DNA of 44,106 nt, from NCBI GenBank assembly GCA_020849655.1, contig JADLFU010000108.1, positions 1 to 44,106 of the forward strand, in the 5' to 3' direction. Under the pieces are notes generated by a model that was given only the letters and a program-made list of their open reading frames with translations, had not been told where the DNA came from and made no database searches. Of the stretch, positions 6,838 to 38,524 are shown in pieces. Within the stretch, counting starts at the first letter, position 1. Each line of letters starts with the position of its first letter. Both the position numbers and the translations under genes were made by a program. Source of the DNA: Polyangiaceae bacterium (GTDB lineage: Bacteria; Myxococcota_A; Polyangia; Polyangiales; Polyangiaceae).

Positions 6838-7965
6838 CTAGGGCGCCAGCCGCTCGAGGGGCACGTACGGGCCGCCGTAGCCAAGCGGGCGCATCAGCGC
6901 GAGGTACGCGTCGACGATCGAGCGCGCGCGCCCCGCCTTGTTCGACGCGACGCCGAGCACGACGACCTGGCTGCCCGCCTTCTGCACGTCGGCGGCCTCG
7001 GCGTTCGAGAACGGCGCGCCGTCGCTCGTGATGAAGCAGATGAGGTCGGGGGAGAGCGCGACCGGCGAGGTCCGGGCGCCGTCCCACGCGAAGAGGTTCT
7101 CGTTCTGGTTGTAGATCCGGAGCGTCCGCTTGCCCTGCCGCAGCGTCACGACGCCGAGATCGAAGCCGCCGGCCGTGTCCTCCGCGACGTCGACGATCTC
7201 GCCGCGGAACAGCTCGCGCGCGCGGAGGAGCTTCGCCACGGCCGCGACGGGGTCGCGCTCCCGTGCCCTCGCCTCGCGCAGCGCTCGGCCCACCGCGCGC
7301 GCGCGGGAGAGCGTCCCCGCGACGGCGACGGGCTTCATCGTGGCGCCCGTCATCGACCAGAACGCGACGCCCGCGTCCTCGCGGAACGCGCCGCCCGAGA
7401 TGATCCCGCGCAGCGTCGCGTCCGCGGTGGTCGCGTCGGGCGCGTCGAAGCGGATGGAGAGATCGCCGTTCGCGACCAGCACCGGGGAGAGCGGCAGGCC
7501 GTGCGCGGCGTACGTGGAGACGTCGAGCGTCGGCATCGCGCGGTCGGCGCCGGACGCGTCGACGAGCGGCAGCCCGCGGCTCGCGCACACCGTCATCGGC
7601 AGGATGCTGTTGCCGGCGCCGACCTCGCCCGGGAGCACGAGATCGAAGGGCGCGCCGCGCACCGCTTCGAGCGCGCGGAACGCGATCGTCGCGGCGTCGA
7701 ACGGGAACCCTGACGCCGCGGCGGTCGGCGAGCCCACGCCCGCAGAGACCGCCATCCACGCGTCGTCCGGCACGTCACGGACCGAGACGACGTCGATGAC
7801 GGGCGTCTTCGCGAGGAGCTCGCCGAGCAGCTGCTCGCCGAGCGCGAACGGGCCGCCCCCGCCCGCGCCGAGCAGCGTCGCGCCGACCAGGACGTCGCGC
7901 AGCGCGACCTCGTCGAAGGGGGAGGTGGGGAGGGATGCAGCGGGGTTAGATTTGTTCTTTTTCAT
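6838..7965 (-). CDS. DUF917 (S-methyl-thiohydantoin desulfurase-like) protein
   Basis: 375 aa. The Gly-rich start (VGATLLGAGGGGP), the LPGEVGAGNS segment, GIISGGAFRED and a C-terminal ITSDGAPFSNAE region match the DUF917 family. From memory, that family is annotated as S-methyl-thiohydantoin desulfurase-like and occurs near hydantoinase-type enzymes; the substrate here is unknown. ATG at 7965 is preceded by GGAG at 9 nt and overlaps the cyclase stop (ATGA), so it is the last gene of a four-gene chain. The first codons are unusually A/T-rich (MKKNKSN), which should keep the ribosome site unstructured. No hydantoinase gene is nearby. Confidence 0.8.
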   Translation of the reverse strand: MKKNKSNPAASLPTSPFDEVALRDVLVGATLLGAGGGGPFALGEQLLGELLAKTPVIDVVSVRDVPDDAWMAVSAGVGSPTAAASGFPFDAATIAFRALEAVRGAPFDLVLPGEVGAGNSILPMTVCASRGLPLVDASGADRAMPTLDVSTYAAHGLPLSPVLVANGDLSIRFDAPDATTADATLRGIISGGAFREDAGVAFWSMTGATMKPVAVAGTLSRARAVGRALREARARERDPVAAVAKLLRARELFRGEIVDVAEDTAGGFDLGVVTLRQGKRTLRIYNQNENLFAWDGARTSPVALSPDLICFITSDGAPFSNAEAADVQKAGSQVVVLGVASNKAGRARSIVDAYLALMRPLGYGGPYVPLERLAP

Positions 7966-10900
7966 GTGGAGGGGCTCCCGTCTTGGTCCAGCCGGAGGGT
8001 GATCGCCCGCGCGCCCTGATCGGCGGCGATCCGCCGGGCGCGCGCGGCGAGCGAGGCGTCGCCGGTCGCGCGCGCGGAGAGGCGCAACAGCTCGGCGTGG
8101 AACACGCGCTCGCCGGTCGCGTCGACCGCGGCGAGCCCGTCCGCGAGCACCTGTCGCGCGACGTCGTCGCGGCCGCCGTCGAGCGCCGCCCGCGCGATCA
8201 GCGCCGCCGAGAGCGTCGCTGAGACCCGGACGCCGCGCGCGCGCATCGTCGCGTGGGCGCCCGTGGCGTCTCGGAGCCCCTCGTCGACCTCGCCGAGCCG
8301 CGCGCGCGCGCAGCCCCCGACGAGCAGGGCGAGCGGCGCGTACGCGGGGAACCCCCCGGCCACGGCGACGCGCCCGAGCTCCGCCGCGCGCGCCAGGGCG
8401 AGCTCGAGCTCGTCGCGGTGCAGGTGCAGGTACGCGAGCGTCTGGAGCACGAGCGCCTCGCTGAAGGGCTGCCCGAGCGCGCGCGCCGCGCGGTGCCCGC
8501 CCGTCGCCACCTCGAGCGCGAGCTCGGGCTCGCCGAGCAGCCACAGCGTCGTCGCGTACGGGAACATCGCCGTCACGCGCGGCGTCTGCGCGAACCTCGC
8601 CATGTGCTCGGCGTCCATCCCCGGCGTCATGTGCGCGAGCGCCGCCTCGAGCCGGGCGCGCGCACCGGCGAGCTCGCCCGCCCAGAAGAGCGAGTTGCCG
8701 AGCACGTGGTTCGCCTCGACGGCGAGGTGGGGATCGTCGCTCTCCTCGGCGAGCGCGAGGCACGCGGACGACAGCTCGCGGGAGCGCGCGTGCTCGGCGC
8801 GGAACAGGTGGTACGTGCGCAGGCCGAAGACCGCGGCGAAGCGGGCGGCCTTGTCGCCCCCGCGGCCCGCGAGCTCGTGCGCTCGCTCATAAGCGCGGCG
8901 GGTCTCGTCGGCGCCCTGACCGTGCGTGACGATGCGCGCGACGCCCTCGTGCATCCGGAGCGCGAGCTCGTGCTCGACGCGGGCCTCGGCGTCGGCGAGC
9001 TGGGGCAGGAGCGACAGGGCGCGCTCCACGTGCGCGCCGGCCTCGCGGTGCGCGCCGTCCCTGAGCGCGCGGGTCGCGGCCACGCGGTACGCCGAGATCG
9101 CGGGCGCCGCCTCGCCGGCCGCGGCGTGGTGGAAGGCGAGGCGCCCCGCGTGCGGCTCGAGCGCGCCTTGGTAGAGCAGCGCGAGCGCGGTCGCGACCTT
9201 CGAGTGCAGCTCGCGCCGCGCCGACGCGAGCGACAGCTCGTACGCCGCGTCACGCAGGAGCGCGTGCGCGAACATCAGGCGCCCCGCGTCGGGCTCGCTC
9301 CACACCCCGCGCACGCGCGCCTCGTCGACCCTCGGCGTCGCCGACGGCGGGGTCAGCCCTCGCGCGGACAGGAGCGCGCCGAGCTCCCTCGCGTCGAACT
9401 CGCGGCCGAGCGCGGCGCCGTCCGACACGACGTCGCGCACGGCGCGCGGGAGCCGATCGAGGCGCGCCACGAGCACCGCGCGAAGATCGGGCGGCACGAG
9501 CGCGGCGCCGGGCGGCGCGTCGAGGGCGTCGAGGTCCTTCAGCAGCAGCACGGCGTGCTCGACGAAGAGCGGGTTGCCGTCGGTGCGCGCGGCGAGCCAC
9601 GCGCCGACCTCGGGCGAGAGCCGCCGTCCGACCAGCGCCTCGCCGAGCGCGCGCACGTCCTCCGCGCCGAGCGGGCCGACCGTCACGCTCACGGCGCCGG
9701 GCAGCGGGCCGTCCGCGGTGGGCCGCGTCGTCGCGAGCACGGCCACGGCGGCCGTCGAGAGCTCCGCCGTCGCGCGGCCGAGGAGCGCCCTCGTCTCGGG
9801 ATCCGCGAGGTGCGCGTCGTCGATCTGCAGCACGATCGGGCGCGCGGTCGCCGCCGCGGTGAAGAGCGCGAGCGCCGCGCGCTCCTGCGCGAGCAGGCGC
9901 GCGGCCGGCGGGAGGCGCAGGAGCGTCGAGCCAGGGAGCGACGCGTCGAGCAGCGCGTCGAGCAGCGGCGCCAGCTCGTCGACGCGCGGCGCCGTCTGCG
10001 GGAGCGCGGAGAGCGTCTCGCGGATCCTCTCGCGCGCGCCCGCGGCGCCGTCGAGCCGCGCGGCGCCGACCATCGCGCCGACGAGCGCGCGCACGGGCCC
10101 GAGCGCGCGCGCCTCGATCGGATCGACCGAGGCCGTGAACCAGCCGACCTCGTCGCGCAGCTCGTCCGACCGCGCGGCCACCAGGCGGCTCTTGCCCACG
10201 CCCGCCTCTCCCTCGACGACCACGAGGCACCCGTGTCCCCCGAGCGCCTCGCGCACCGCCGCGCCGAGGGACTCTCTCTCCCTCTCTCGACCGAGCAGCG
10301 GGCCGGCGGACGCGGAGGCCGCGCGCACGCCCACGAGGCGGTGGAGCTCCACGGGCGCCGCGAAACCCTTGAACGCGCGGGCGCCCAGCGGCTCGAGCCG
10401 GTGCGTCGCGGCGCCGAGGCGCGCGAGCTCCGGGGCGATCCACGCCTCGCCCTCGGGCGTCGCCGCGAGCGCGCGCGCGGCGAGGTTCACGGCGTCGCCG
10501 TAGCACGCGTACTCCTCGCGGCTCCGGGCGCCGACGAACCCGGCGAAGACGCGCCCTCGCGCGGCGGCGACGCGCAGCGTGGGTCGCCGCGCGAGCAGCT
10601 CGAGCGACGCCGAGAGCGCCCGCTCGACGTCGTGCTCGGACGCGACGGGCGCCCCCCAGTAGAGGAGCGCGACCGGCCCCTTGTCCCCCAGCTCGATCTG
10701 CCGGAGGTGCCCCGCGGTCGCCGCCGCGCACGCGAGGACGTCGCCGACGGCGGCCGCGAGCTCGTCGCCCGGCAGCGCGACGAACATCGCGACGGCGTCG
10801 CGCAGCTCGCCGAAGCGCGCGTCGTCGAGCAGCTCCTCCGGGAAGAACCGCGTCGCCACCTCTCGCGCCCTCTCGGCGCTCAGCAAGGGCGCAGGCGGAG

Positions 10901-11444
10901 GGGCGTCGAGGGGCGCGGTGGACGCGCGGCGGATCTCGATCTCGGACGGTCGCGCCGCCGCCTGCGCGGCGATCGCGTGCTCGATCGCGCTGCCGCCGAA
11001 CGCGTACGTCGATCGCGCGCCCCGCACGAAGACATGGCCGCAGAGCTCGCCGACGCCGACGCCGACGCGCACCGCGAGCTCGAACGTCCCGAGCGGTGTC
11101 GCGCGGGGGCTCACGCCGCGCACCGCTCGCACCACCTGCTCGGCGGCCGCCGTCGCGCGCGCCTCTGCGCTCCGCGCCTCCCCCGGGAACAGCGCCGTGA
11201 AGGCGTCCCCCGCGTAGCTCGACACGAAGCCGCCGTGCGCCTCGACCGCGCCGACGGCCGGCTCGAACAGCGCCGTGATCGTCTCGGCCAGCACCTCGAC
11301 GCCGAGCGGGCCGTGCGCCGCGAGGGATCTCGTGAGCGCCACGAACCCGCGCACGTCGACGAAGAGCGCGGCGCCGGGCTCCCGCGCCTCGGTCACGCCA
11401 GCGGCCGCGCGCGCGAGCACGAGCGGCGGCACGAGCGCGCGCAT
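7962..11444 (-). CDS. Class III adenylyl cyclase, tandem domains fused to P-loop ATPase and helical repeats (soluble-AC type)
   Basis: 1160 aa with the domain order of mammalian soluble adenylyl cyclase (ADCY10). Cyclase half 1 (~25-165) has metal-binding Asp at D30 (FVDVRGF) and D80 (YAGDAF). Half 2 (~210-370) has the DKG segment (K255, expected adenine-contacting Lys) and N320/R324 (NLAAR), the transition-state pair. Together they form one complete site in one chain. A P-loop follows (GEAGVGKS, ~411-419), then Walker B (IVLQIDDAHL), and ~500 residues of Ala/Leu-rich helical repeats. It should make cAMP in the cytosol. The position of the bicarbonate-binding Lys of human sAC appears to be Ser (S76). 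ATG at 11444 overlaps the upstream stop (TGATG), with GAAGG 7 nt before it. Confidence 0.88.
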   Translation of the reverse strand: MRALVPPLVLARAAAGVTEAREPGAALFVDVRGFVALTRSLAAHGPLGVEVLAETITALFEPAVGAVEAHGGFVSSYAGDAFTALFPGEARSAEARATAAAEQVVRAVRGVSPRATPLGTFELAVRVGVGVGELCGHVFVRGARSTYAFGGSAIEHAIAAQAAARPSEIEIRRASTAPLDAPPPAPLLSAERAREVATRFFPEELLDDARFGELRDAVAMFVALPGDELAAAVGDVLACAAATAGHLRQIELGDKGPVALLYWGAPVASEHDVERALSASLELLARRPTLRVAAARGRVFAGFVGARSREEYACYGDAVNLAARALAATPEGEAWIAPELARLGAATHRLEPLGARAFKGFAAPVELHRLVGVRAASASAGPLLGRERERESLGAAVREALGGHGCLVVVEGEAGVGKSRLVAARSDELRDEVGWFTASVDPIEARALGPVRALVGAMVGAARLDGAAGARERIRETLSALPQTAPRVDELAPLLDALLDASLPGSTLLRLPPAARLLAQERAALALFTAAATARPIVLQIDDAHLADPETRALLGRATAELSTAAVAVLATTRPTADGPLPGAVSVTVGPLGAEDVRALGEALVGRRLSPEVGAWLAARTDGNPLFVEHAVLLLKDLDALDAPPGAALVPPDLRAVLVARLDRLPRAVRDVVSDGAALGREFDARELGALLSARGLTPPSATPRVDEARVRGVWSEPDAGRLMFAHALLRDAAYELSLASARRELHSKVATALALLYQGALEPHAGRLAFHHAAAGEAAPAISAYRVAATRALRDGAHREAGAHVERALSLLPQLADAEARVEHELALRMHEGVARIVTHGQGADETRRAYERAHELAGRGGDKAARFAAVFGLRTYHLFRAEHARSRELSSACLALAEESDDPHLAVEANHVLGNSLFWAGELAGARARLEAALAHMTPGMDAEHMARFAQTPRVTAMFPYATTLWLLGEPELALEVATGGHRAARALGQPFSEALVLQTLAYLHLHRDELELALARAAELGRVAVAGGFPAYAPLALLVGGCARARLGEVDEGLRDATGAHATMRARGVRVSATLSAALIARAALDGGRDDVARQVLADGLAAVDATGERVFHAELLRLSARATGDASLAARARRIAADQGARAITLRLDQDGSPST

Positions 11445-12301
11445 CACGCGGCCTTCGCGAGGAAGGGGAGCGTCAAATTGCCCTTGAAATAGCCCATCAG
11501 CGTGTCGACGTCGTACCCGCCGAACCAGAACGACAGCGGCCACGGCTGCGACGTGCCGACGACGCCCCCGAGCGCGCCGCCGGGATCGACGACGAGGGGC
11601 GGGCCGTCGAGCGGGAACGCGTACACGGCCTGCATGCCCATGAACTGCGTCGCCGCCAGCATCTGACCGACCAGCACGCGATCGTTCGCGAGCCCGCGCA
11701 GCCGCTTCTCGAGCGCGAGCCGCGCCATCGGATCACGCTCGCGCTCGAGCCGCTCGGTGAGCGCCCGGGCGCGCTCCGCCCGCGTCTTCGCGTAGTCCAT
11801 CACGCCGGTCGCCTCGGCGACCTCCGCGGACTGGATGCTCGCGGTGTTGAGCCGAGGGTTCAGGAGCGCAGGATCGAGGAACACGTCGTTGACGGTGAGC
11901 CACGGGCGCGTGACGTCCCAGAGCGCCTTGCGGCGCAGCGACGCGCCGTCGCGCTCGATCTCGAGATCGAAGGGATCGATCGGCGTCGACCACGCGGCCT
12001 CGACGAGGATCAGGTTTCGCTGCTGGAACTGCGCGCCGTCGCGCAGGCGCACCCGCGCGCCGACGAGCGCGTGCGCCGGCGCGGGCGCGCCGCCGATGGT
12101 CACGCTGGTCACGACCACGCCGTCGTCCGCCGTACGCGGCCAGCGCGGGCACACGAAGTCGTTGGTCCGCACGACGCGGTCGAACGGCGGCTCCCCGGGC
12201 ACGACGAACGACGGCCCCGAGACCCCGCGCAGATCGTCGGACGGATCGGGATCGACCGCGAACCGGCACTGGAACCACCCCTCGAACGAGAGGACCATCA
12301 T
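11444..12301 (-). CDS. Unknown protein, partner of the ferritin-like gene
   Basis: 285 aa, not recognised. It has no signal peptide, membrane span or Cys pair. The N-terminal two thirds look beta-rich (repeated short Val/Arg strands separated by PAP, DGA and Pro turns); a charged helical stretch of Arg/Glu/Leu follows, then a Gly/Pro-rich end. ATG at 12301 overlaps the ferritin-like stop (ATGA) with GAAGG 10 nt upstream, and its own stop overlaps the cyclase start. Such tight chaining suggests a stoichiometric partner of a neighbour. Confidence 0.8.
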   Translation of the reverse strand: MMVLSFEGWFQCRFAVDPDPSDDLRGVSGPSFVVPGEPPFDRVVRTNDFVCPRWPRTADDGVVVTSVTIGGAPAPAHALVGARVRLRDGAQFQQRNLILVEAAWSTPIDPFDLEIERDGASLRRKALWDVTRPWLTVNDVFLDPALLNPRLNTASIQSAEVAEATGVMDYAKTRAERARALTERLERERDPMARLALEKRLRGLANDRVLVGQMLAATQFMGMQAVYAFPLDGPPLVVDPGGALGGVVGTSQPWPLSFWFGGYDVDTLMGYFKGNLTLPFLAKAA

Positions 12302-13644
12302 CGCGCCACCGCCTTCTTGCCGCTCGCCATCACGGCGGCCCAACGCCGCTCGATGAGGTCGATCGTCTCGGCCACGTACGCGACCCGCGCGGGCGCGCCC
12401 GGCAGCTTCGACACCGCGCGCGCGCGATCCCGGAGCCCCACCAGCTGCTCGCCGATCAGGAGGAACGCGGCGCGCCTGTGCGGCAAGAACGCGAGGTCCG
12501 TCGGAGCGTCGAAGCACGGCCCCGCGCGCTCCGGCCGCGCCTCGTCGCCCGCGGGCAGCTGCGTCAGGATCTCCGAGAGCGGCCGGATCAGCATCGTCAT
12601 GAACGGGAAGAACGCCGCGGACTTCAGCTCCGCGAGCTCGGCCACCGACTCGTCCGTGTGGTTGAACAGCCGGGTCAGCATCAGCAGCATCGTCGCGTAC
12701 GCGTCCGTGAAGAGCTCGAGCACCGCGCGCGACAGCGGGTTCGTGACGACGGTCGCGCCGGGGCGCGGCGCCGCGCGCGGGTTCGGCACCACGCGACGCG
12801 ACGGCTCGAACGACGGGTTCGCGCGGGTGAGCGCGTCGAGCTCGGCGAGCAGCTGCAAGAACACCCGGTAGTGCGGCGGGTTCATCGGCGGATCCTCCGG
12901 GAGGCCGCCGTCACGCGCCGCCGCCGCCGCGAGAAAATCGCGCGCGCGCGGGCCGGCGCCGCTCCCGCCCTCGCCCTGCTCGATGATGAGATCGATCGCC
13001 CGGAGCGCGGAGGGCAGATCGGAGATCGCGAAGAGGAACACGTCGTACACGCCGCCCTTCGCGCGGTACCTCGGGAAGTCCAGGCCCAGCTCCGCGCCGG
13101 TGATCTCGTTCCTCGCCTGCCCCAGGAAGAGATCGACGCCCGCCGCGTCGAGCGCGAGCAGCGTCTCCCTGATCCTCGCGTACAGCTCGCCGACGGTGCG
13201 GTACCCGCCGGGGCCGGGGGCGAGCTGCCGCGAGGGCCCGCCCTCGGCGCAGAACGCGTCCTCGGGCTCGATGCGCGCCGGGCGCTCGAAGCAGACGAAC
13301 CTCATCAGCGTCTCGCGATCGAGCCGCGTGCACGTCATCTCGTGGCGAAACAGGCTCGTCGGATACGGGAACGGCGGGTGCGCGAACGTCGGCGCGCCGC
13401 CCACCGCCGTCAGCAGGTTGCACACGAGCCCGAGGTGCTCCATCTCCTGCCGCGCCACCATCAACAGCAGGCGCTCCCACTGCGTCACGTGGTTCAGCTC
13501 GTGGTCGGTCAGGCCCTCGTCGACGCTCGCCTTCAGCGACAGCGCGGAGAACAGGTACGCGCCGCAGAGCGCGTGCTCGACGGCCGCGGCCTCCGAGAGG
13601 AGCTTCACGAGATCGCTTCGCGTGGGCGGGTGAGCGCGCGTCAT
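12298..13644 (-). CDS. Ferritin-like domain protein (VioB / iminophenylpyruvate dimer synthase type)
   Basis: 448 aa. The N-terminal four-helix pattern has a first-helix Glu (AAVEHALCGAY, E23), a second-helix ExxH (RQEMEH, E67/H70), then IIEQGEG and PHYRVFLQLL, the order seen in the ferritin-like domain first described in violacein VioB. Such domains bind metal and, in the VioB/StaD/RebD context, belong to enzymes coupling amino-acid-derived imines; stand-alone members have no assigned reaction that I know of. No signal peptide, so cytosolic. It heads the four-gene chain. ATG at 13644 has no Shine-Dalgarno; an AT-rich patch lies 35-41 nt upstream. A violacein-type pathway is not implied, since no other pathway genes are present. 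Confidence 0.82.
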   Translation of the reverse strand: MTRAHPPTRSDLVKLLSEAAAVEHALCGAYLFSALSLKASVDEGLTDHELNHVTQWERLLLMVARQEMEHLGLVCNLLTAVGGAPTFAHPPFPYPTSLFRHEMTCTRLDRETLMRFVCFERPARIEPEDAFCAEGGPSRQLAPGPGGYRTVGELYARIRETLLALDAAGVDLFLGQARNEITGAELGLDFPRYRAKGGVYDVFLFAISDLPSALRAIDLIIEQGEGGSGAGPRARDFLAAAAARDGGLPEDPPMNPPHYRVFLQLLAELDALTRANPSFEPSRRVVPNPRAAPRPGATVVTNPLSRAVLELFTDAYATMLLMLTRLFNHTDESVAELAELKSAAFFPFMTMLIRPLSEILTQLPAGDEARPERAGPCFDAPTDLAFLPHRRAAFLLIGEQLVGLRDRARAVSKLPGAPARVAYVAETIDLIERRWAAVMASGKKAVAR

Positions 13645-13733: not shown

Positions 13734-14438
13734 GTGCGCGCCCCGCCTCGAGCCCCCCGCCTGCTCATCGTGCTCGCGTGCGCGCTCCTGCTCCCCATCG
13801 TGCCGTTCGTCGTCATCGGCGAGCTGCCGGGCGAGCGGTGGCTGCGCGCGAGCGGGGACGGCGCGCTCGCGTTCGGCGCGACGGGCGCGGCGCTGCTCGC
13901 GCTCGACGTGCTCTTGCCGATCCCGTCGAGCCTCCTCGGCGCGCTGCTCGGCGCGCGGCTGGGCTTCGCGGCGGGCTTCGCGTGGTCGCTCGCCGGGCTG
14001 TGGGTCGGGCACGTCGTCGGCTACTCGCTCGGGCGCCTCGTCCCGTCGCGGTGGGCGAGCGAGCTGCCGCGCGCGCCGACGCTGTGGGTCGTGTTCCTCA
14101 GCCGCCCCGTGCCGGTGCTCGCGGAGGCGGTCTCGGTCGCGTCGGGCGCGGAGCGCGTGCCGCTCGCCGGGTTCCTCGCGGCGTCGGCCGCGGGCGACTG
14201 CGTCTACGCAGCGGTGCTCGCCGCCGACGGCGCGGCGTGGCTGCCGTCGGGGCTGCGCGGGCCCGGGCTCGCCGCGCCGATGCTGCTGCCCGTCGTCGCG
14301 TGGCTGTCGTGGCGTTGGCTCGCGGGTCGGCGCGCGGGCGGCTCGGCGTCGCGAACCAGCGAGGCGAGCGATCGGGCGCGCGCGGTCCGAGATCCCAGCC
14401 CGAGCCCGCCCGCGAGCGACGCCCGCGACACGACGTAA
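13734..14438 (+). CDS. VTT/DedA-like (SNARE-associated) membrane protein
   Basis: 234 aa with about five hydrophobic segments. The central LDVLLPIPSSLLGALLGARLGF and FLSRPVPVLAEAVSVASGA stretches match the VTT domain pattern (Pro-bearing re-entrant helix, then R-P-x-P). DedA/VTT proteins are lipid scramblases or flippases of the inner membrane. GTG at 13734 is used. The last ~35 residues are an Arg/Ser/Pro tail that does not look conserved, and its final codons and stop lie inside a 41-bp sequence repeated at 17762-17802. The 3' end may therefore have been altered by the rearranged region that follows. Confidence 0.8.
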   Translation: MRAPPRAPRLLIVLACALLLPIVPFVVIGELPGERWLRASGDGALAFGATGAALLALDVLLPIPSSLLGALLGARLGFAAGFAWSLAGLWVGHVVGYSLGRLVPSRWASELPRAPTLWVVFLSRPVPVLAEAVSVASGAERVPLAGFLAASAAGDCVYAAVLAADGAAWLPSGLRGPGLAAPMLLPVVAWLSWRWLAGRRAGGSASRTSEASDRARAVRDPSPSPPASDARDTT

Positions 14439-22627: not shown

Positions 22628-22654
22628 GGAGGCAAACCTTCGAGGGGGTGCTTG

Positions 22655-25459
22655 ATGATCACGATCCGACGAGTGCTGGTGCTGGGCGGCCTGGGCGCGA
22701 TGGTGTGCTGTCTCCCGTCGCTCGGGTGCGGCGGGGGAGGGGACGGCGCCGAGAGCGCGCCTCCCGCCGCGTCCGCCGGCGCGGGCGGAGGCTCCGCGGG
22801 CGGGGCCGGCGCGAGCGGTCAGGCCGGCAAGGCTGGCGGGGCCGGTCAGGCGGGTCAGGCAGGCGCAGGCGGCGCGGGCAAGGCGGGCGCGGGCGGGGGA
22901 CAGGCGGGCACCGCGGGGGCGGGAGGCTGCGCGGTCGCGGCGGACTGCCCCACGGCCGCCGCCGTCCCGGCCGGGTGCGCGGAGCCGTTCTGCGACGCCG
23001 GCGTGTGCAGGCTGCGCGGGCGCGACGCCGACGGCGACGGCTACCGCACGAACCTCTGCAAGGCCGCGCAGGCGGGGACCGTGATCCTGCTCGGCGACGA
23101 CTGTGACGACACCTCCGGCAAGGTGAACCCCAAGGGCTGGGACGGCCCCGCCGGCGACGGCCACACGGACGCGTGCGGCGACGGGGTCGACCAGGACTGC
23201 AGCGGCATCGAGGGCGACGGGAAGACCGCGGCGGGCGCCACCTGCACCTGCACCCCGGGCGACGTCACCCAGTGCGCAGAGCGTGACAACGGCCAGAAGA
23301 TCACCTTCCCTGGGGGCAAGCCCGTCGGCGCTTGCAAGTTCGGCTCGAAGACGTGCCTCGCGGGCGGCACCTGGAGCCCGTGCACCGGCGCGGTCGAGCC
23401 CGCCCAGGAGCTGTGCGACGGCGCCGACAATGACTGCAACGGCGTGATCGACAACGACGCGATCGGGCAGGCCGTCCACTACCTCGACGCCGACGGCGAT
23501 GGCCACGGCGACGCGCTCACGCCCGGCAAGCCGTCGTGCCAGCCGCCGACGCCGCTGTGGAAGAAGGGCATCGTCCCCGACGACTGCAACGACTCCGATC
23601 TCAGCGTCTACCCGACCGCGTGGGACGGCCCCCAGGCCGCGAAGACGACCGCGGGCATCATCGGCACGCTGAAGGCTGAGTTCTGGCAGTGCGGGACGCA
23701 GCCGCAGTGCCTCGCGGACGGGTTCGTGGGGGCCCCGCTCGGCACCCGCCAGGACTACCAGGTCAACGCCAACTGGGGCAGCGGCAGCGGCCACGCCGCG
23801 CTGACGAACGGCGACTACTGGTCGGCGCGCTGGACAGGCAAGGTGAGGGCCGGCCAGGCGGGCACCTACACGTTCCATGTGCGCAGCGACGACGGCTCCC
23901 GGCTGTGGGTCAAGGGGCAGCCGCTGATCGACAAGTGGGTGCCACAGGCCCCGACCGAGCACGCCGGCACGATCGCGCTCGCCGCGGGCGAGGAGGTCGA
24001 TCTGGTGCTCGAGTACGTGGAGCTCGCCGTCAACGCGATCGTCCAGCTGCGGTGGGAGGGGCCCGGACTGTCGAAGCAGATCCTCTCGTCCATGTCCGAC
24101 CCCACGCAGGGCGACCACCCCGACAGCTGCGACGGCGTCGACAACAACTGCGACACGCTCGTCGACAACATGCAGGTGCAGGACGGCGGAAAGACCGTGT
24201 TCTGCGGCGCGTGCCAGGCGGGCACCGCCCGGCCCTGCGGCGTCACCCGCGGGACGTGCAAGTCGGGCGTCCAGCTCTGCCTGCCGAGCGGCCAGTGGGA
24301 CACGGCCTGCTACGGGGCGATCGAGCCGGTGACCGAGATCTGTGACGGAAAGGACGAGGACTGCGACGGCCTGATCGACAACAAGCAGGGCGGGTGCCCG
24401 TGCCAGATCGGCGCCGTCGAGAGCGACTGCGGCGTCTGCAAGAAGGGCTCGCGCCAGTGCACGGCGTCGGGCTGGACCGCCTGCGTCGGCGACGACGTCC
24501 CGCTCGAGCAGTGCGAGGACGCCGACAGCGACGGGCACTGCAACCTCTCCCGCTGCGAGGTCGCGTGCCCCGGCAGCAAGCCCGGCTACAAGCCGAAGGC
24601 GGGCGTCTGCCCGGGCGCGACGGACTGCAACGACCAGGCGGCCGCGGTGCACCCGGGCGCGAGCGAGGTGTGCAACGGCGTCGATGACAACTGCAACGGC
24701 ATGGGCGACGAGCAGGCGCTGGTCGGCGCGGCCTGCAACTCGCTCCCCGGGACTCCTTGCAACACCGTCGGCAACCTGAAGTGCGTCAACAAGACGTTCT
24801 CGGTGTGCAGCGCGACGCCGCTGCCCGGCGCGCCCGAGGTCTGCGACAACGTCGACAACGACTGCGATGGCAAGATCGACGACGCCACATACCTCGGGCA
24901 GGCCGACGTGGTGCCAGCCGCGTGCTACCGCTGCGAGACGTTCTTCACGGGGATGCTGCGCCCGTCGCTGTTCGGCTCCGACGCGCTGCTCGCCGGCGAC
25001 GACGAGTTCGCCACCAGCGGCCCCGAGGTCGACTACAAGCTGATGTTCGAGCTGGGCTCCGGCACGTACAGCGGAAGCCTCAGGGGCACGGCGTGCATGA
25101 TGGGCCGCGAGACCAACGGCGGCGCCAGCGTCGGCTATGGGTGCGCCATCGACTACCGCGAGTACAGGGAGGCCGGCGTGAAGGTGCCCATCCTCGAGGT
25201 CGTCGGCCCCAAGTCGGTGGGCGGCAACGTCTCGTTCGGCTCGCAGACGGGCTACGCGAAGCTGTACACCGACTCGAACGAGGCGACCGACATCGGTGAC
25301 GCGGCGGTGTCGGGCGCCGGGACGCTGACCACCTTCCACTACGAGTGCAACGGGCAGACCCCGGGCCCCGACATCGTGGTCGGGAATTCCGGTTCGGGCA
25401 TGTCCTCCTGTTTCATGGGGCAGTTCAACTGCATCACCGTGCGGGTCGCGCCGAAGTGA
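22655..25459 (+). CDS. MopE-like Ca/metal-binding repeat protein with PA14 domain, surface lipoprotein
   Basis: 934 aa. Signal ending near LPSLGC, then a Gly/Ala/Gln-rich linker (~32-92). Six Cys/Asp repeats of the type CDGxDNDCxGxxD lie near residues 174, 253, 491, 563, 672 and 729, with three DxDxDG Ca-loops (DADGDGY, DADGDGH, DADSDGH) and DDCND turns. A PA14 domain spans ~335-475 (LKAEFWQ, GTYTFHVRSDDGSRLWV, GEEVDLVLEY), a carbohydrate- or adhesion-related beta-barrel. The last ~175 residues are an unrecognised Cys-containing domain. Likely exported, disulfide-rich and surface-exposed; adhesion or glycan binding is inference. Confidence 0.88.
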   Translation: MITIRRVLVLGGLGAMVCCLPSLGCGGGGDGAESAPPAASAGAGGGSAGGAGASGQAGKAGGAGQAGQAGAGGAGKAGAGGGQAGTAGAGGCAVAADCPTAAAVPAGCAEPFCDAGVCRLRGRDADGDGYRTNLCKAAQAGTVILLGDDCDDTSGKVNPKGWDGPAGDGHTDACGDGVDQDCSGIEGDGKTAAGATCTCTPGDVTQCAERDNGQKITFPGGKPVGACKFGSKTCLAGGTWSPCTGAVEPAQELCDGADNDCNGVIDNDAIGQAVHYLDADGDGHGDALTPGKPSCQPPTPLWKKGIVPDDCNDSDLSVYPTAWDGPQAAKTTAGIIGTLKAEFWQCGTQPQCLADGFVGAPLGTRQDYQVNANWGSGSGHAALTNGDYWSARWTGKVRAGQAGTYTFHVRSDDGSRLWVKGQPLIDKWVPQAPTEHAGTIALAAGEEVDLVLEYVELAVNAIVQLRWEGPGLSKQILSSMSDPTQGDHPDSCDGVDNNCDTLVDNMQVQDGGKTVFCGACQAGTARPCGVTRGTCKSGVQLCLPSGQWDTACYGAIEPVTEICDGKDEDCDGLIDNKQGGCPCQIGAVESDCGVCKKGSRQCTASGWTACVGDDVPLEQCEDADSDGHCNLSRCEVACPGSKPGYKPKAGVCPGATDCNDQAAAVHPGASEVCNGVDDNCNGMGDEQALVGAACNSLPGTPCNTVGNLKCVNKTFSVCSATPLPGAPEVCDNVDNDCDGKIDDATYLGQADVVPAACYRCETFFTGMLRPSLFGSDALLAGDDEFATSGPEVDYKLMFELGSGTYSGSLRGTACMMGRETNGGASVGYGCAIDYREYREAGVKVPILEVVGPKSVGGNVSFGSQTGYAKLYTDSNEATDIGDAAVSGAGTLTTFHYECNGQTPGPDIVVGNSGSGMSSCFMGQFNCITVRVAPK

Positions 25460-30602: not shown

Positions 30603-32141
30603 TCACGGCGCGACGTCAATGATCGTTGCTGGCCGCAGCGTCGGGTGCGCCGCGACCGCGTACCAGCCCTCGGGCAGCTGCGGGTCCATCCAGCCGAACA
30701 GCCAGCGCGCGTCGGCGGGCGTGAGGTTGAGGCAGCCGTGGCTCCGTGGGCGGCCGAAGCCGTCGTGCCAGTACGCGCCGTGGACGGCGTAGCCGTCGAG
30801 GTAGTACGCGACCCACGGCACCTCGTCGACGCTCCAGCGGACGCCGCCCTCCTCGCCGGACATGTCGGCGGTGAGGTGCTTCCACGACACCATGAAGCGC
30901 CCGAGCGGCGTGCCGTGCGTGACGCCCTGGCCGACGCCCCCCGCGCCCGGGGACATCGCGAACACGCGGACGGGCGTGAGCCCGCGCATCGCGAGCAACG
31001 TCCCTCGGCCGACGCTCGCGCGGACCCAGCGCGCGTCGGGTCCGACGCCGACGGGCAGCGACGCGGGCGCCTCTGCCCAGGCGACGTCGGAGGCGCGCAC
31101 CCAGCCGCCGCCGCGCGCCCGGAGGAGCCGCACGCCGAGCGTCGTCACCGGCCCGCCGTCCACCGGGATCACGCTGCGTCGCGCGAGCGGCTCGCGCTCG
31201 ACGAGGTGATCTCCCTCGACCTCGAGCCTGCGGGCGTCCTCGGTCACGACGAGCGCGACGGGCAGCTTCGACGCGCCGGGCGCGGCGAGATCGGCGCCGA
31301 ACGCGGGCGGCTCGTCGAGCGGCGTGACCCGATCCTTCGGGAGGATCGCGCCGTCGGGCGTGACCACGAACGCGCGCCCGTCGCCCGCGAGCTCGCGGGC
31401 CCACGCGACGCGCTCGCTCGCGTACGTGCCCCGCGCGAAGAGCAGGCGCGGCTCGCGCCCCCGCAGCGCCGCGAGCGCGGACGGGTCGATGAGCGGAGGC
31501 TCCGCCTGCGCGGTCCGTGTGAGCTTCGTGAGATCGAGCTCGGTCACCGCCTGCTCGCCGGCCGTCGGGGGCCGCCGGTACCTCGGGCCGAACGACGCCG
31601 CGCCGACGCGAAACGGCAGCGATCTGCTCGCGTCGGGGAGCAGCGCCGCGGCCGCCTCCGCGCCGCGATCCTCGCCGAGCGTGGCGTCCGCCCCCGCGCA
31701 CGCGAACCCGCGCGGCGCGACCGCGTACCACCCCCCGCGGCACGGGCTCGACGGGTGCGTCGCGCGCGCGGCGGACGACAGCGGCACGCGCTGACCGCGG
31801 CGCGAGAGCCCGACGCGAGGCGAGCCCCGATCCGGGCGCTCGTGGATCGGGAGCCACCTGGCGGTCACCAGCAGCGACGCGGGCGGCGCGGAGGGCGCGG
31901 CCGCCGCCGACGACGCGGCGGGGGCGAGGGACGTCGGCGCGGCGATCGGCGGCGCCGGCGGCGCGCCGCGCGAAGCGTCGGACGCAGGCGCGGACCCGGA
32001 GGGGAGCGGCGTCGCGCTCGGCCGTGCGGGCTCCACCGACGGCGCGACGGCCCCGCAGGCGACGAGCGCCACCCAGGCGCCGGGCGCGACGAGCCGCAGC
32101 GTCGAAGTAGCGCTCCTTGGGCTTCGAGGCGTCGAGGACAA
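30603..32141 (-). CDS. L,D-transpeptidase (YkuD-type), large lipoprotein
   Basis: 512 aa. Start TTG at 32141 gives a signal with lipobox LVAC followed by a Pro/Ala/Ser linker, an SH3-like region (LPIHERPDRGSPRVG), ~280 residues of unknown fold, and the YkuD catalytic domain at the C-terminus: YAVHGAYWHDGFG and RSHGCLNL with the nucleophile Cys near residue 468. Canonical motif, expected to cross-link peptidoglycan in the periplasm. It is the second YkuD protein of the window and has a quite different architecture from the one at 15314. TAAGGT is 9 nt before the start. Confidence 0.9.
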   Translation of the reverse strand: MSSTPRSPRSATSTLRLVAPGAWVALVACGAVAPSVEPARPSATPLPSGSAPASDASRGAPPAPPIAAPTSLAPAASSAAAAPSAPPASLLVTARWLPIHERPDRGSPRVGLSRRGQRVPLSSAARATHPSSPCRGGWYAVAPRGFACAGADATLGEDRGAEAAAALLPDASRSLPFRVGAASFGPRYRRPPTAGEQAVTELDLTKLTRTAQAEPPLIDPSALAALRGREPRLLFARGTYASERVAWARELAGDGRAFVVTPDGAILPKDRVTPLDEPPAFGADLAAPGASKLPVALVVTEDARRLEVEGDHLVEREPLARRSVIPVDGGPVTTLGVRLLRARGGGWVRASDVAWAEAPASLPVGVGPDARWVRASVGRGTLLAMRGLTPVRVFAMSPGAGGVGQGVTHGTPLGRFMVSWKHLTADMSGEEGGVRWSVDEVPWVAYYLDGYAVHGAYWHDGFGRPRSHGCLNLTPADARWLFGWMDPQLPEGWYAVAAHPTLRPATIIDVAP

Positions 32142-32150
32142 CGCGCACGC

Positions 32151-32156
32151 ACCTTA
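32151..32156 (-). promoter_or_regulatory. Candidate -10 box of the second L,D-transpeptidase gene
   Basis: TAAGGT on the minus strand, 9 nt before the TTG start at 32141. It is divergent from the TRAP promoter, with 48 bp between the boxes. Confidence 0.35.
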
Positions 32157-32204
32157 CCAGCCCGCCGCGTCGCCGTTCGTTTCCCCCGCGTGGCGGCGTT
32201 CCGC

Positions 32205-32210
32205 TACCCT
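32205..32210 (+). promoter_or_regulatory. Candidate -10 box of the TRAP operon
   Basis: TACCCT, 11 nt before ATG 32222, in the 80-bp divergent region. No Shine-Dalgarno precedes the ATG. Confidence 0.35.
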
Positions 32211-32221
32211 CGCGGGCCTTC

Positions 32222-33391
32222 ATGTCCGAGCCCTCCTCCGACACCGACGAGCCGGCGGCGACCTCGAGCGTCGAGCCCGCATCCGCGCCTGACGCGCCCG
32301 GCCCTCACGGCGCGCCGAAGCCGTCCCCCGCTGCCTGGGGGGATCCGCTCCACAGGTTCCAGGAGCGCTGGGTGAGGCTCGAGGTGACGCTCTCCGTCGT
32401 CATCGTCATCGCCGAGATCCTCTCCCTCGCGTCGTGGATCGCGCTGAAGGGCCTGTCGTCGCCGCCCGGCGTCTCGGCCGCGGGGCTCGTGTTCCGCGCC
32501 GGCGTGACGGCGACCGCGCTCGGGATCGCCGCGTGGTTCGGCCTGAAGAACGCGTCGCCCGTCGTGCGCCAGGTCGCGACGTGCGTCGCGGTCGCGGCGG
32601 GGCTCTTCCTCGGCAGGGCGTGGGTCTCGGTGGGCGTCGCGTACGGCGCCGAGCTCGTCGGCTGGTACCAGGACGCCTCGACCCTCACGCTCGTCGGCGG
32701 CCTGCGCGCGGTCGGTACTCGCTGCACCATCTGGCTCGCCATGCTCGGCGCGAGCCTCGCGACCTCGAGCGGCAAGCACATCAACGTCGACGTCGTGATG
32801 CGCTTCATGCCGACGCGCCTGCGCGTGCCGGTGGCCGTCGCCGCGTGGTCCGCCGCAGCCGTGGTGTCGTTCGCCGCGGCGTGGGGCTTCGTCGAGCACA
32901 TCGCGGTCACGTCGTTCGGCGCGAAGAGCGACGCGACGATGGGCGCAAAGGTCGGCGCGATCGCCGAGGAGATGGGCGAGCACCGCTTCCTCCTGAGCGC
33001 GCAGCTCCGCCTCGATCGCGTGGTCGGCTGGCGGGTGTTCTCGGGAGAGCGGCACCTGAAGAGCCTCTCTGGCGCGGAGTGGAACCAGATCATCGAGTCG
33101 GGCGGCTGGGCCGCGCGCTACGGCGCGGAGAAGGCGCAGGCGCTGCGGGTGCCGGCGACGGAGGCCTACGTGACGCCGCTCGTCACCATCCCCGGCGGCC
33201 GCTCGCCGCGCGGCATCCTCGTCGAGGATCTCAACCTGCTCTTCCCGTTCGGGTTCTTCATGATCGGGCTGAAGTTCCTCCTGCGCTGCCTGCTCGCGAT
33301 CTCGGGCCACGTGGAGGTCGACCCGGACGCCGCCCACCGCGAGGAGGGTCACGCGCCCTCGGAGCGTGACGCCGCCGAGGAGGCCGCCTGA
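32222..33391 (+). CDS. TRAP transporter small permease (DctQ-type), enlarged
   Basis: 389 aa, about twice the usual DctQ length. After a Pro-rich N-terminus come hydrophobic segments near 54-77, 86-107 and 117-140, the DctQ signature WLAMLGASLATSSGKHINVD, another membrane helix, and a final one (FPFGFFMIGLKFLLRCL). Between the last two lies a ~115-residue soluble insert (GAKSDATMGAKVGAIAEEMG ... VTPLVTIPGGRSPRG) that would face the periplasm. It partners with the large permease, whose ATG overlaps its TGA (TGATG). Confidence 0.85.
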   Translation: MSEPSSDTDEPAATSSVEPASAPDAPGPHGAPKPSPAAWGDPLHRFQERWVRLEVTLSVVIVIAEILSLASWIALKGLSSPPGVSAAGLVFRAGVTATALGIAAWFGLKNASPVVRQVATCVAVAAGLFLGRAWVSVGVAYGAELVGWYQDASTLTLVGGLRAVGTRCTIWLAMLGASLATSSGKHINVDVVMRFMPTRLRVPVAVAAWSAAAVVSFAAAWGFVEHIAVTSFGAKSDATMGAKVGAIAEEMGEHRFLLSAQLRLDRVVGWRVFSGERHLKSLSGAEWNQIIESGGWAARYGAEKAQALRVPATEAYVTPLVTIPGGRSPRGILVEDLNLLFPFGFFMIGLKFLLRCLLAISGHVEVDPDAAHREEGHAPSERDAAEEAA

Positions 33392-35034
33392 TGGGAGCCG
33401 CGCTCGCCCTCGTCATCGTCGCCCTCGCGCTGTTCGGGATGCCGCTCTTCACGGTGATGGGCGGCCTCTCGAGCGTCGCCTGGCTGTACCACCGCGACGC
33501 GAACTTCCACAGCCTGCGGTACCTCGCGCCCGACGTGCTCGACGCGCGCTTCGCGGGCTCGCCGATCCTCGTCACCATCCCGCTCTTCACGTTCGTCGGC
33601 TACCTGATGGCCGAGTCGAAGACGCCCGATCGCATCGTGCGCGCGTCGCAGGCGTTCTTCGGGTGGATGCCGGGCGGCCTCGCGATCGTGTGCATCGTGG
33701 CGTCCGCGTTCTTCACGACGCTGACGGGCGGCAGCGGCGTCACCATCGTCGCGATCGGCGGCCTGCTCTACCCGGCGCTCCGCAAGCAGGGCTACCCCGA
33801 GGGCTTCTCGCTCGGGCTCGTGACGACCGGCGGCTCGCTCGGCCTCCTCTTGCCGCCGTCGCTGCCGATCCTCGTCTACGCGCTGGTCGCGCAGATCGAC
33901 TACAACAAGGCCTTCAAGGCCGGGCTCATCCCCGGCTTCGGCATCATGGCGATGCTGGCGGTCTACTCCGCGTACGTCGCCATCAAGCACAAGGTCCCGC
34001 GCAGCAAGCCCGACCTGCGCGAGATGGGCGCGGCCCTCTGGCTCATCAAGTGGGAGATGCTGGTGCCGGTGCTCATCCTCGGCGGGCTCGGCTCCGGGCT
34101 CACCGGGCTCGACGAGGCGGCCGCGCTCGCGGCGCTCTACACGCTCATCATCGAGGTGTTCGTCTACCGCGATCTGAGCCTGAAGAAGGATCTGCCGCGC
34201 GTCGTGAAGAGCTCGATGAGCCTCGCCGGCGCGATCATCATCATCCTCGCGATGGCGAACGCGCTCATCAACTACGCCATCCAGGAGCAGATCCCGAACA
34301 AGGTGCTGGAGGCGATGATCAGCCTCGGCCTGTCGCAGAAGTGGCAGTTCCTGATCGTCCTCAACATCTTCCTGCTCGTGCTCGGGATGGTGATGGACGG
34401 GTTCTCCGCGATCCTCGTCGCGGTGCCGCTCATCCTGCCGTTCGGCGCGCGGTTCGGGCTGCACCCGTTCCACCTCGCGATGATGTTCCTCCTGAACCTC
34501 GAGATCGCGTACTGCGCGCCGCCGCTCGGGCTGAACCTCTACATCTCGAGCTTCCGGTTCAACCGGCCCGTCGTCAGCCTGTACAAGATCGTGCTGCCTG
34601 CGACGGCGATCCTGACGCTCGGGCTGTTCATCGTGATGTACGTGCCGAAGGTCTCGACGGTGCTCGTCGACAAGGACTCCGCGGCCGCGCGCGCCGAGGC
34701 GCTCGCGAAGCACGAGCCGCCGCGCGAGGCCTGGCGGCTCGAGTGCGTGCAGGAAGATCAGACCCAGCCGCAGCCGTGCACGGACGAGGAGAAGAAGCGC
34801 TACCCGGGCGGCAACACGCCCTCGGAGGCGAAGGAGCCGCACCCGAAGGCGGACGACGCCGCGCCCGCGGACGACGACGCGCCGGCCGACGAGGACGACG
34901 ACGCGCGGCTGAAGCGCCTGATGAAGAAGGCCGCCGACGCGGCGAGCGGCAAGCCCTCGGCGCCGGAGCCCGAGGACGAGGACGACGACGCGCGGCTGAA
35001 GCGCCTGATGCGCGAGGCGGCAGGGAAAAAATAG
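33391..35034 (+). CDS. TRAP transporter large permease (DctM-type)
   Basis: 547 aa. Core ~1-430 matches DctM: FGMPLFTVMGGL, TIPLFTFVGYLMAESKTPDR, FFTTLTGGSGVTIVAIGGLL, SLGLLLPPSLPILVY, FLLNLEIAYCAPPLGLNLY. It couples Na+ or H+ flow to organic-acid uptake in the inner membrane. A GGAGG lies 7 nt before the ATG, inside the DctQ gene. Unusual is a ~110-residue hydrophilic C-terminal tail ending in two copies of DEDDDARLKRLM. No periplasmic binding protein (DctP/TAXI) gene is in the window, so the substrate cannot be inferred. Confidence 0.93.
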   Translation: MGAALALVIVALALFGMPLFTVMGGLSSVAWLYHRDANFHSLRYLAPDVLDARFAGSPILVTIPLFTFVGYLMAESKTPDRIVRASQAFFGWMPGGLAIVCIVASAFFTTLTGGSGVTIVAIGGLLYPALRKQGYPEGFSLGLVTTGGSLGLLLPPSLPILVYALVAQIDYNKAFKAGLIPGFGIMAMLAVYSAYVAIKHKVPRSKPDLREMGAALWLIKWEMLVPVLILGGLGSGLTGLDEAAALAALYTLIIEVFVYRDLSLKKDLPRVVKSSMSLAGAIIIILAMANALINYAIQEQIPNKVLEAMISLGLSQKWQFLIVLNIFLLVLGMVMDGFSAILVAVPLILPFGARFGLHPFHLAMMFLLNLEIAYCAPPLGLNLYISSFRFNRPVVSLYKIVLPATAILTLGLFIVMYVPKVSTVLVDKDSAAARAEALAKHEPPREAWRLECVQEDQTQPQPCTDEEKKRYPGGNTPSEAKEPHPKADDAAPADDDAPADEDDDARLKRLMKKAADAASGKPSAPEPEDEDDDARLKRLMREAAGKK

Positions 35035-36685: not shown

Positions 36686-38524
36686 TCACCTCGCGGCGTC
36701 GCCGGGGTGCCCACCGAAGACCCGCCGCGCCTCGGCCTCGAGGTCGCCGCACGCGGCCGCGCCGAGGTCGCGCTGCTCGCGCGGATCGGCGACGACGTCG
36801 AAGCAGTGGAACCCCTGGTCCCACTGGCGCGCTTCGAGCTTCCTCGGGCCGCGCATCACCCCCCAGCTCTTGAACGGGCACGTCCAGAGCTCGCTGCAGT
36901 TGGTGAGCGGCGCCGCGTACGGGGTGTAGGGGCGCAGGAGCGAGCGCCCCGGCAGCCGCTCGACGAACCGCGCGACCTCGGGCGCGTCCGTCGCGCCGAG
37001 CAGGTCGATCAGGGTGGGCACGACGTCCGTGTGGAACACCTGCCGCGCGCGGGCGTCCTCGAGCGACGCGCGCTCGTCGTCGGTCAAGAGCGGCGCCGGC
37101 GCGTCGATCCACGCGGGCACGAGGATCTCCTCGTCGTACACGCTCAGCGTGTGGCCGAGCTGCCCGTGCTCGCGGAACGCCTCGCCGTGGTCGCTCGTGA
37201 ACAGGATCACCGTGCGGTCGCCGTAGGCCGCGCGGCGCACGCCGTCGATGAGCGCGCCGACGGTCCTGTCCTGCGCGCGCACCGCGTTCTGAAAATGACG
37301 GCGAAACGCGTCGTTCTTCGCCGGATCCTTCGTGAACTCCGCCGGCTGGAACGGCTCGTCGCCCTCGTCGATCCTGTAAGGAAAGTGTGTGTTGGACAGG
37401 TGCACCACGGCGAGGAACGGCTCGCGCATCGTCGCCAGCTCGCGGAGCGCGTATGCCGTCGCGAGCCCGTCGTGCGCGCCGAGATCGAGGTCGGCGTTGG
37501 GATCGAGCTCGGCGCCGCTCACCCGCCGCGACACGGGCACGTTGCGGATGAACATGTCGCTGTTGCCGAAGCGCAGATCCTGGCTGGTGAAGTACCCGGT
37601 GTCGTAGCCGGCGGCGCGCGCGATCTCCCAGATCATCGGCGCGCGGTGGATGGCGTCGCGCGACGCCGTCGGCGACAGCCCGGTGAAGAGCACGCCGACG
37701 CTGATCGCCGTCGTGCTGTCGTTCGCCCGCATCCCGGTGAAGCCGATGCGCCGCGGCGCCGCGCGGTGGGAGAACGGCGTCTTGTCGCACGCCTGCTCGC
37801 CGGCGAGGCACACGAGATCGCGCGGCACGCTCTCGGTGAGCACGAAGAGCACGTTGCGCGGGCGCGAGGGGCGGGGGACGAACGCGGGGATGTACTCGGG
37901 CGAGTGCTCGCCGGGGAGCGCCTGGCGCCCGCCCGCCAGGCCGAGCTTCGCGCGAGCGAGCGAGCCGACCGCGTGGACGAGCAGCACGTCGGGCGTCGCG
38001 GCCTGGCGCGGCGACGAGATCCACGGGACGGCCACGGCGACCAGGAGCGCGCCCGCCGCCACGCCCCACGCGCGGCGCGCGACGCCTGCCTCCACCCTCG
38101 CGCGCGCGGCGACGACGCCGACGAGCGCCGCCGCGGCGAGCGCGGGACGAGCGTGCGTCCACGCGAGGTGGCGGCCGTCCGCCCGGAGCTGCGCGAGCAC
38201 GCTGGTCGAGAACGCGGCGCCGAAGCGCGCGGCGGCGTCGTCGATGTACGCCGCGTAGTTGTGGTGGAAATACGCTTGCCCGCCGAAGAGCGCCGCGGCG
38301 AGCGCGACGAACAGGAGCCGCGCCGCGTGGCGCCCGCGCCCCGGCCCGAGGCCCGCCACGAGCAGCGCCGCCCAGAGTGACCCCGAGAGCAGCGCGCTCG
38401 CCGCGTACGACACGAGCTCGAGCGAGCGGAGCTCGGCGACGCGACCGGCGCGGCGCACGACGTCGAGCGCGATGACCACGGCCCCGAGCGCGACGGCGCC
38501 CCACGCGAGCCTCCGCGCGGGCAT
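36686..38524 (-). CDS. Membrane sulfatase/phosphoglycerol-phosphoethanolamine transferase-type enzyme
   Basis: 612 aa. About five membrane helices in residues 1-180, then an alkaline-phosphatase-superfamily domain facing the periplasm: metal Glu in NVLFVLTESVPRD, nucleophile region RANDSTTAISVGVLFTGL, and metal pair SDHGEAFREHGQLGHT. The Glu for Asp at the first metal position and the membrane anchor fit LtaS/OpgB/EptA-like transferases better than secreted sulfatases. Acts on lipids or envelope glycans; the donor is unknown. ATG at 38524 overlaps the STAND gene stop (TGATG). Confidence 0.85.
   Translation of the reverse strand: MPARRLAWGAVALGAVVIALDVVRRAGRVAELRSLELVSYAASALLSGSLWAALLVAGLGPGRGRHAARLLFVALAAALFGGQAYFHHNYAAYIDDAAARFGAAFSTSVLAQLRADGRHLAWTHARPALAAAALVGVVAARARVEAGVARRAWGVAAGALLVAVAVPWISSPRQAATPDVLLVHAVGSLARAKLGLAGGRQALPGEHSPEYIPAFVPRPSRPRNVLFVLTESVPRDLVCLAGEQACDKTPFSHRAAPRRIGFTGMRANDSTTAISVGVLFTGLSPTASRDAIHRAPMIWEIARAAGYDTGYFTSQDLRFGNSDMFIRNVPVSRRVSGAELDPNADLDLGAHDGLATAYALRELATMREPFLAVVHLSNTHFPYRIDEGDEPFQPAEFTKDPAKNDAFRRHFQNAVRAQDRTVGALIDGVRRAAYGDRTVILFTSDHGEAFREHGQLGHTLSVYDEEILVPAWIDAPAPLLTDDERASLEDARARQVFHTDVVPTLIDLLGATDAPEVARFVERLPGRSLLRPYTPYAAPLTNCSELWTCPFKSWGVMRGPRKLEARQWDQGFHCFDVVADPREQRDLGAAACGDLEAEARRVFGGHPGDAAR

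Follow-up and report, generated by a model that had tools for sequence, protein, structure and literature searches.

A ferritin-like protein and its 285-residue partner beside a cyclase-STAND protein: a rare, apparently undescribed five-gene module in Polyangiaceae and distant bacteria

The window analysed here (the whole stretch of DNA under study, 44,106 nucleotides, contig JADLFU010000108.1 of assembly GCA_020849655.1) comes from a Polyangiaceae bacterium whose genome comprises 6.56 Mb in 307 contigs and is 97% complete. Between positions 13644 and 6838, four minus-strand open reading frames follow one another, each overlapping the next by its start and stop codons. Read on the coding strand, the junctions are GCGCGATGATGGTC (ATGA) between genes 1 and 2, GCCGCGTGATGCGC (TGATG) between genes 2 and 3, and CTCCACATGAAAAAG (ATGA) between genes 3 and 4. 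The original prediction had described this chain, and all of its reading frames and junctions were present, with a domain content (ferritin-like, no known family, cyclase plus ATPase, DUF917) that agrees with Pfam. The four genes recur as a set. A fifth, divergent gene encoding a VTT/DedA-like membrane protein had been missed.

Table 1. Genes of the module, with positions in the window.
Gene	Position	Strand	Length	Description
Gene 1, ferritin-like protein	12298..13644	-	448 aa, ATG start	PF12902 domain and C-terminal four-helix bundle
Gene 2, partner of gene 1	11444..12301	-	285 aa	Predicted beta-barrel with helical insert; no Pfam/NCBIfam family
Gene 3, cyclase-STAND protein	7962..11444	-	1160 aa from ATG; 1161 aa if the GTG directly before is used	C1-C2 cyclase, STAND-type AAA_16 ATPase and C-terminal helical/TPR-like region
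Gene 4, DUF917 / S-Me-THD-like two-domain protein	6838..7965	-	375 aa	PF06032 and PF20906
Gene 5, VTT/DedA-like membrane protein	13734..14438	+, divergent		89 bp from gene 1

The flanking reading frames of the operon that were scanned encode an ABC protein, an SNF2 helicase and a 96-residue product without a Pfam match, and neither RNA elements nor tRNAs were found in the window. At 38524-42828, on the minus strand, lies a second large STAND-like protein of 1434 residues (AAA_16 E 3.9e-7, just under the cut-off; NACHT E 2.6e-6). The plus strand carries the TRAP-type transporter genes DctQ and DctM at 32117-35034, with no substrate-binding (DctP) domain in the adjacent genes scanned, and at 22652-25459 the gene of a 935-residue protein with a lipoprotein-like signal at its start, PA14 and three Cu-binding MopE motifs.

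Gene 1 passes the PF12902 model with an E-value of 5.7e-32 and 111.8 bits (gathering threshold 22.3). Its predicted structure (AF2, pLDDT 83.4) superimposes on 3hl1 with a Z-score of 24.8 over 261 residues at 2.5 Å, a match of the model that confirmed the predicted PF12902 ferritin-like fold. Homologues share 26-53% identity; Glu23, His24, Glu67, His70 and His258 are invariant among 16 of them, with Glu67 and His70 forming an ExxH pair, and the glutamate of a QGEG motif is nearly invariant. This set of glutamates and histidines looks like a carboxylate/histidine metal site, here putative, and gene 1 probably encodes an iron enzyme. An assignment as VioB-type, as originally proposed, went too far: the protein scores 58.5 bits against the VioB model TIGR04492, whose curated cut-off is 1250, which amounts to a superfamily resemblance only.

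The product of gene 2 matched no family in Pfam or NCBIfam. Its predicted structure (AF2, pLDDT 82.9) gave no Foldseek match at E ≤ 0.001 and no confident PDB match by fold; similarity to allene-oxide-cyclase-type barrels (AbyU, dirigent proteins, PodA) was weak, with a best Z-score of 5.3 over 111-123 residues. Homologues at 26-57% identity have in common the invariant residues DPDP 17-20, Glu37, Asn96, Arg177, Trp254, Trp259, Asp264 and Asp266. That gene 2 might be a detached VioB N-terminal region was also considered; sequence and profile comparisons gave no match.

Gene 3 contains an AAA_16 domain (E 5.5e-15, residues 384-565), in which the Walker A motif GEAGVGKS is kept, and a Guanylate_cyc domain (E 1.8e-6). 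The latter is the second of two cyclase domains and the only one detected by Pfam, which does not call the TPR region in the window protein either; the first was found by phmmer comparison with human soluble adenylyl cyclase. The first domain is too diverged for Pfam, yet aligns with C1 of the human enzyme. The phmmer alignment to 4cm2 spans 25-170 and 242-330. The predicted soluble-adenylyl-cyclase-like architecture was thus borne out, with both cyclase domains aligned and the STAND ATPase next to them. For the individual residues, we take their roles to be those established for soluble adenylyl cyclase. The metal aspartates (Asp47, Asp99) and the transition-state Asn/Arg (Asn412, Arg416) are kept in the window protein, in its congener and in the Acidimicrobiaceae and Bacteroidota loci described below (L007 and L008). 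In the window protein, the adenine-recognition pair Lys334/Thr405 is changed to Gln/Ala, the bicarbonate-linked Lys95 to Ser and Arg176 to a non-Arg residue. A catalytic C1-C2 site is likely; the nucleotide product is uncertain, and cAMP is not assured because the base-recognition pair is not kept. To call gene 3 a cAMP-forming switch was too firm, given these changes in the base-recognition and bicarbonate-linked residues. The source genome encodes 16 cNMP-binding domains, and a reader for a cyclic nucleotide therefore exists.

Gene 4 passes both of its domain models, PF06032 (E 4.5e-31, 108.5 bits) and PF20906 (E 7.2e-34, 117.2 bits), at a gathering threshold of 27, and matches PDB entry 2o3i by phmmer at E 1.2e-35. 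Against the thiohydantoin desulfurase models it scores 70.7 bits (NF058532, cut-off 450) and 63.7 bits (NF058529, cut-off 440), so that the S-methyl-thiohydantoin chemistry invoked originally is likewise reduced to a superfamily resemblance. DUF917 genes are enriched beside cyclodipeptide oxidases, which oxidise cyclic dipeptides, and have been interpreted as hydantoinase-like (PMC11055893). A tree of ten sequences split, at 100/100 support, the STAND-linked DUF917 proteins (three phyla and a kinase-linked copy) together with 2o3i from unlinked copies of the same family. The DUF917 copies of genomes G088, G099, G100 and G104 have no adjoining gene 3 homologue.

A scan of a genome collection with the ferritin-like protein yielded 12 loci, in all of which a homologue of gene 2 was adjacent (12/12). 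Gene 2 again lay next to gene 1 in the further matches from G100, G103, G073, G185, G374 (twice), G264 and G707. Because they are adjacent in every locus evaluated in which the contig ends are intact, genes 1 and 2 are an obligate pair. The whole set was retrieved beyond the source genome as well, in agreement with the predicted co-occurrence in related genomes: the four genes are co-localised in a congener (G026, whose contig ends inside gene 2, followed by genes 3 and 4) and in two MAGs, one of Acidimicrobiaceae and one of Bacteroidota. The Acidimicrobiaceae locus (L007; so titled, with an isolate label that reads Acidobacteriota) has the four genes in the order of the window, their junctions overlapping or nearly so, and carries the VTT gene divergently. 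In the Bacteroidota locus (L008) all five genes are present, the pair on one strand and the cyclase and DUF917 genes on the other. DUF917 is absent from the locus of a Marivivens MAG (L009), in which the pair is accompanied by a VTT gene and a SAM-cyclase-STAND-TPR protein. Genomes G000, G452 and G453 each encode a single PF12902 protein, and the remaining genes of the set lie no more than about 8 kb from it. If each genome has one DUF917 gene, a number counted in G000 only, the probability that a DUF917 gene and a cyclase gene both fall within 10 kb of PF12902 is, by a rough estimate, 1e-5 to 3e-4 per genome. The recurrence of the set in three phyla is thus more than chance.

Gene 5 scores 29.4 bits against PF09335 (gathering threshold 33.9), a threshold that its homologues in L008, L009 and L014 pass. 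A homologue adjoins the pair in L007, L008, L009, L014 and L018, either divergently (L007, L009) or downstream (L014, L018); in L008 it lies upstream, its stop codon overlapping the ATG of the ferritin-like gene. Judged from this arrangement, the VTT gene should be counted as a fifth member of the module.

The module is rare. Gene 2 was found in 5 of 108 genomes of its own family and in 4 of 379 in a phylum-wide sample, in 2 of 395 from the phylum of the Bacteroidota MAG, in 3 of 396 (two partial) from that of an Acidobacteriota MAG and in 1 of 138 from the order of the Acidimicrobiaceae MAG. In the stretches read, surveys of the phyla of the Bacteroidota and Acidobacteriota MAGs and of the orders of the Bacteroidota and Acidimicrobiaceae MAGs yielded few additional pairs and not one more complete cluster, and no gene 2 was found on plasmids or viral contigs. 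This patchy distribution suggests horizontal spread. The G+C contents of the loci differ (43% in L008, 66% in L007, 72% in the congener), which shows that the three transfers, if they took place, are old. Most of the non-myxococcal pair loci L010-L018 have neither a STAND cyclase nor DUF917 nearby in the stretches read, and the pair can therefore act without those genes.

Elsewhere in Myxococcota, the neighbours of the pair vary in their output domains. A kinase-STAND-TPR protein lies directly 3' of the pair in L021 and a kinase-STAND protein in L040; in L019 and L020 the pair is followed by a CxxCH protein and then by a kinase-STAND-GAF-histidine kinase; in L042 and L043 a kinase-FGE gene is directly upstream. 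The last are kinase-FGE-sulfatase (formylglycine-enzyme-like) fusions, which two Myxococcota genomes carry immediately 5' of the ferritin-like gene, at L042:10472-16345 and L043:1395-5155. The constant core is hence the pair of ferritin-like and 285-residue proteins, and the signalling protein beside it is exchangeable between lineages, which revises the earlier view of an operon built around the cyclase. A locus lacking the pair, L081 of G030, carries a DUF917 gene of the same clade beside kinase-STAND-TPR, together with VioB-N-like and CxxCH proteins. There, at L081:1080-4283, a CxxCH protein of 414 residues adjoins a 653-residue protein resembling the VioB N terminus, neither with a Pfam match; in L019 and L020 CxxCH relatives come after the pair, and L010 has them at a distance of about 5 kb. 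Since kinases abound in Myxococcota, a neighbouring kinase gene is by itself weak evidence. Linkage to the cyclase counts for more, because the source genome, which has one DUF917 and one PF12902 protein, has only one full-length protein of the gene 3 type (the other match being a 79-residue piece). In a tree of STAND-TPR regions, the window protein, its congener and L007 formed a clade with 100% support apart from the other STAND proteins of the compared genomes; L008 and L009 were long branches of unsure placement.

Collectively, these data describe a five-gene module that is real and conserved and for which a role combining chemistry with a sensor is plausible; it is apparently undescribed, literature searches having found no paper on this gene set. 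We propose, with a probability of roughly 0.4 for the module and the steps as a whole, that it is a rare accessory module coupling small-molecule redox/hydrolytic chemistry to intracellular signalling. The putative iron-binding protein of gene 1 and the barrel of gene 2 would act in a single complex to oxidise a small compound, either heterocyclic or derived from an amino acid; gene 4 would open or desulfurise a hydantoin-like ring in the same route, and transport of the compound, or of a lipid, across the membrane may be the task of the VTT protein. The C-terminal repeat region of gene 3 would sense the compound, or the state of the gene 1/gene 2 pair. By analogy with MalT and other STAND switches, the protein would then bind ATP and assemble, which would join C1 and C2; some of the genome's 16 cNMP-binding domains could read the resulting cyclic nucleotide. 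Points against this reading are that most pairs of L010-L018 lack a STAND cyclase and DUF917 nearby, that L081 has DUF917 and kinase-STAND but not the pair, that the base-recognition residues of gene 3 are changed and that Pfam does not call its TPR region. The earlier idea of a two-enzyme pathway with its own sensor, which came through its own check for neighbouring homologues in related genomes, stays plausible but is unproven. A wider generalisation, that the pair is a new metal-dependent enzyme/sensor serving as fixed input of exchangeable STAND systems acting through a cyclase, a Ser/Thr kinase or a histidine kinase, that DUF917 and VTT proteins are accessories to it, and that it stands for an undescribed chemistry-to-second-messenger class in at least three phyla, is one to which we give limited credence.

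The same observations can be read as signalling only. The pair would then be a redox, iron or oxygen sensor or a ligand receptor feeding the STAND output, with DUF917 making or removing the ligand. The swapping of the partner (cyclase-STAND, kinase-STAND, kinase-STAND-GAF-HK, kinase-FGE) while the pair stays fits this proposal, as does the finding that every evaluable Myxococcota pair locus adjoins such a signalling protein. However, in the stretches read no such protein adjoins the Bacteroidota and Acidobacteriota pairs of L010-L018, and the ferritin-like fold, with its invariant Glu and His residues, points to a catalytic metal site; we consider a purely signalling role possible but on the whole doubtful. 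A somewhat less likely proposal is a secondary-metabolite cluster with a pathway-specific STAND regulator, as in TOMM clusters, whose product would be exported by the VTT protein. Gene 3 indeed matches TIGR03903 (TOMM_kin_cyc) over residues 255-1146 with an E-value of 3.2e-72, gene 1 has PF12902 in common with VioB, and genes for VioB-like or VioB-N-like proteins occur close to the pair (L010, L011) or adjoin DUF917/kinase-STAND (L081). Yet the TIGR03903 match reaches 243.9 bits against a cut-off of 705.75, no precursor-peptide or heterocyclase gene was recognised among the scanned flanking reading frames, and the module has just two enzyme-like genes.

It is improbable that the genes are mere neighbours, co-inherited in a horizontally spread block with separate roles: the very patchy distribution (5/108 in the family, 4/379 in the phylum sample) and the separate occurrence of the parts elsewhere would be in keeping with this, but the L008 block is rearranged and still retains all five genes, its G+C content of 43% shows long residence, and both the congener and L007 still have the start/stop overlaps. 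Least of all do we favour a STAND-type anti-phage system with a cyclase effector (Pycsar- or Avs-like), a very remote prospect in spite of the STAND architecture and of the weak similarity to a Pycsar cyclase that PADLOC gave for the first cyclase domain (E 1.9e-9), since genes 1, 2 and 4 have no PADLOC match, no Pycsar effector gene adjoins and the flanking genes are mostly housekeeping, transport or unknown.

The most interesting results are the conservation across phyla and the swapping of output domains; the biochemical account, cAMP included, is one that we infer. To our knowledge, the ligand of the STAND/TPR half in cyclases of soluble-adenylyl-cyclase architecture is largely open. If the coupling of chemistry to signalling proposed above holds, a bacterial cyclase of this kind would have a dedicated set of genetic partners and hence a findable ligand, and the 285-residue family, which has no Pfam or NCBIfam model, and a DUF917 subclade would gain their first functional context.

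Comparison with known systems places the module beside several of them. Gene 1 has the PF12902 ferritin-like domain in common with VioB, RebD and StaD of the bisindole pathways, but lacks the N-terminal region of VioB, to which gene 2 bears no detectable kinship. The two-domain DUF917 family is common to gene 4 and the thiohydantoin desulfurases (NF058532, NF058529). Like mammalian soluble adenylyl cyclase (ADCY10) and bacterial proteins built on the same plan, gene 3 consists of a C1-C2 tandem, an AAA/STAND module and a long C-terminal repeat region; both cyclase domains align (E 1.6e-10), and the metal Asp pair and the Asn/Arg are common to gene 3 and ADCY10. In contrast to ADCY10, gene 3 has neither Lys95/Arg176 nor Lys334/Thr405 and stands in an operon with enzymes. 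TOMM kinase/cyclase fusion clusters likewise place a cyclase-STAND-TPR signalling protein beside small-molecule enzymes; unlike the TOMM fusion, gene 3 falls under the curated cut-off of TIGR03903 and has no kinase domain, and no TOMM genes were recognised. The module resembles TOMM-type arrangements of enzymes plus a STAND kinase or cyclase without belonging to them. In MalT-type STAND one-component regulators, ATP operates the switch and the C-terminal repeat region is the sensor. We propose by analogy that gene 3 is likewise an ATP-dependent switch with a C-terminal repeat sensor; the output of MalT-type proteins is DNA binding, whereas a cyclic nucleotide or a kinase would take its place here.
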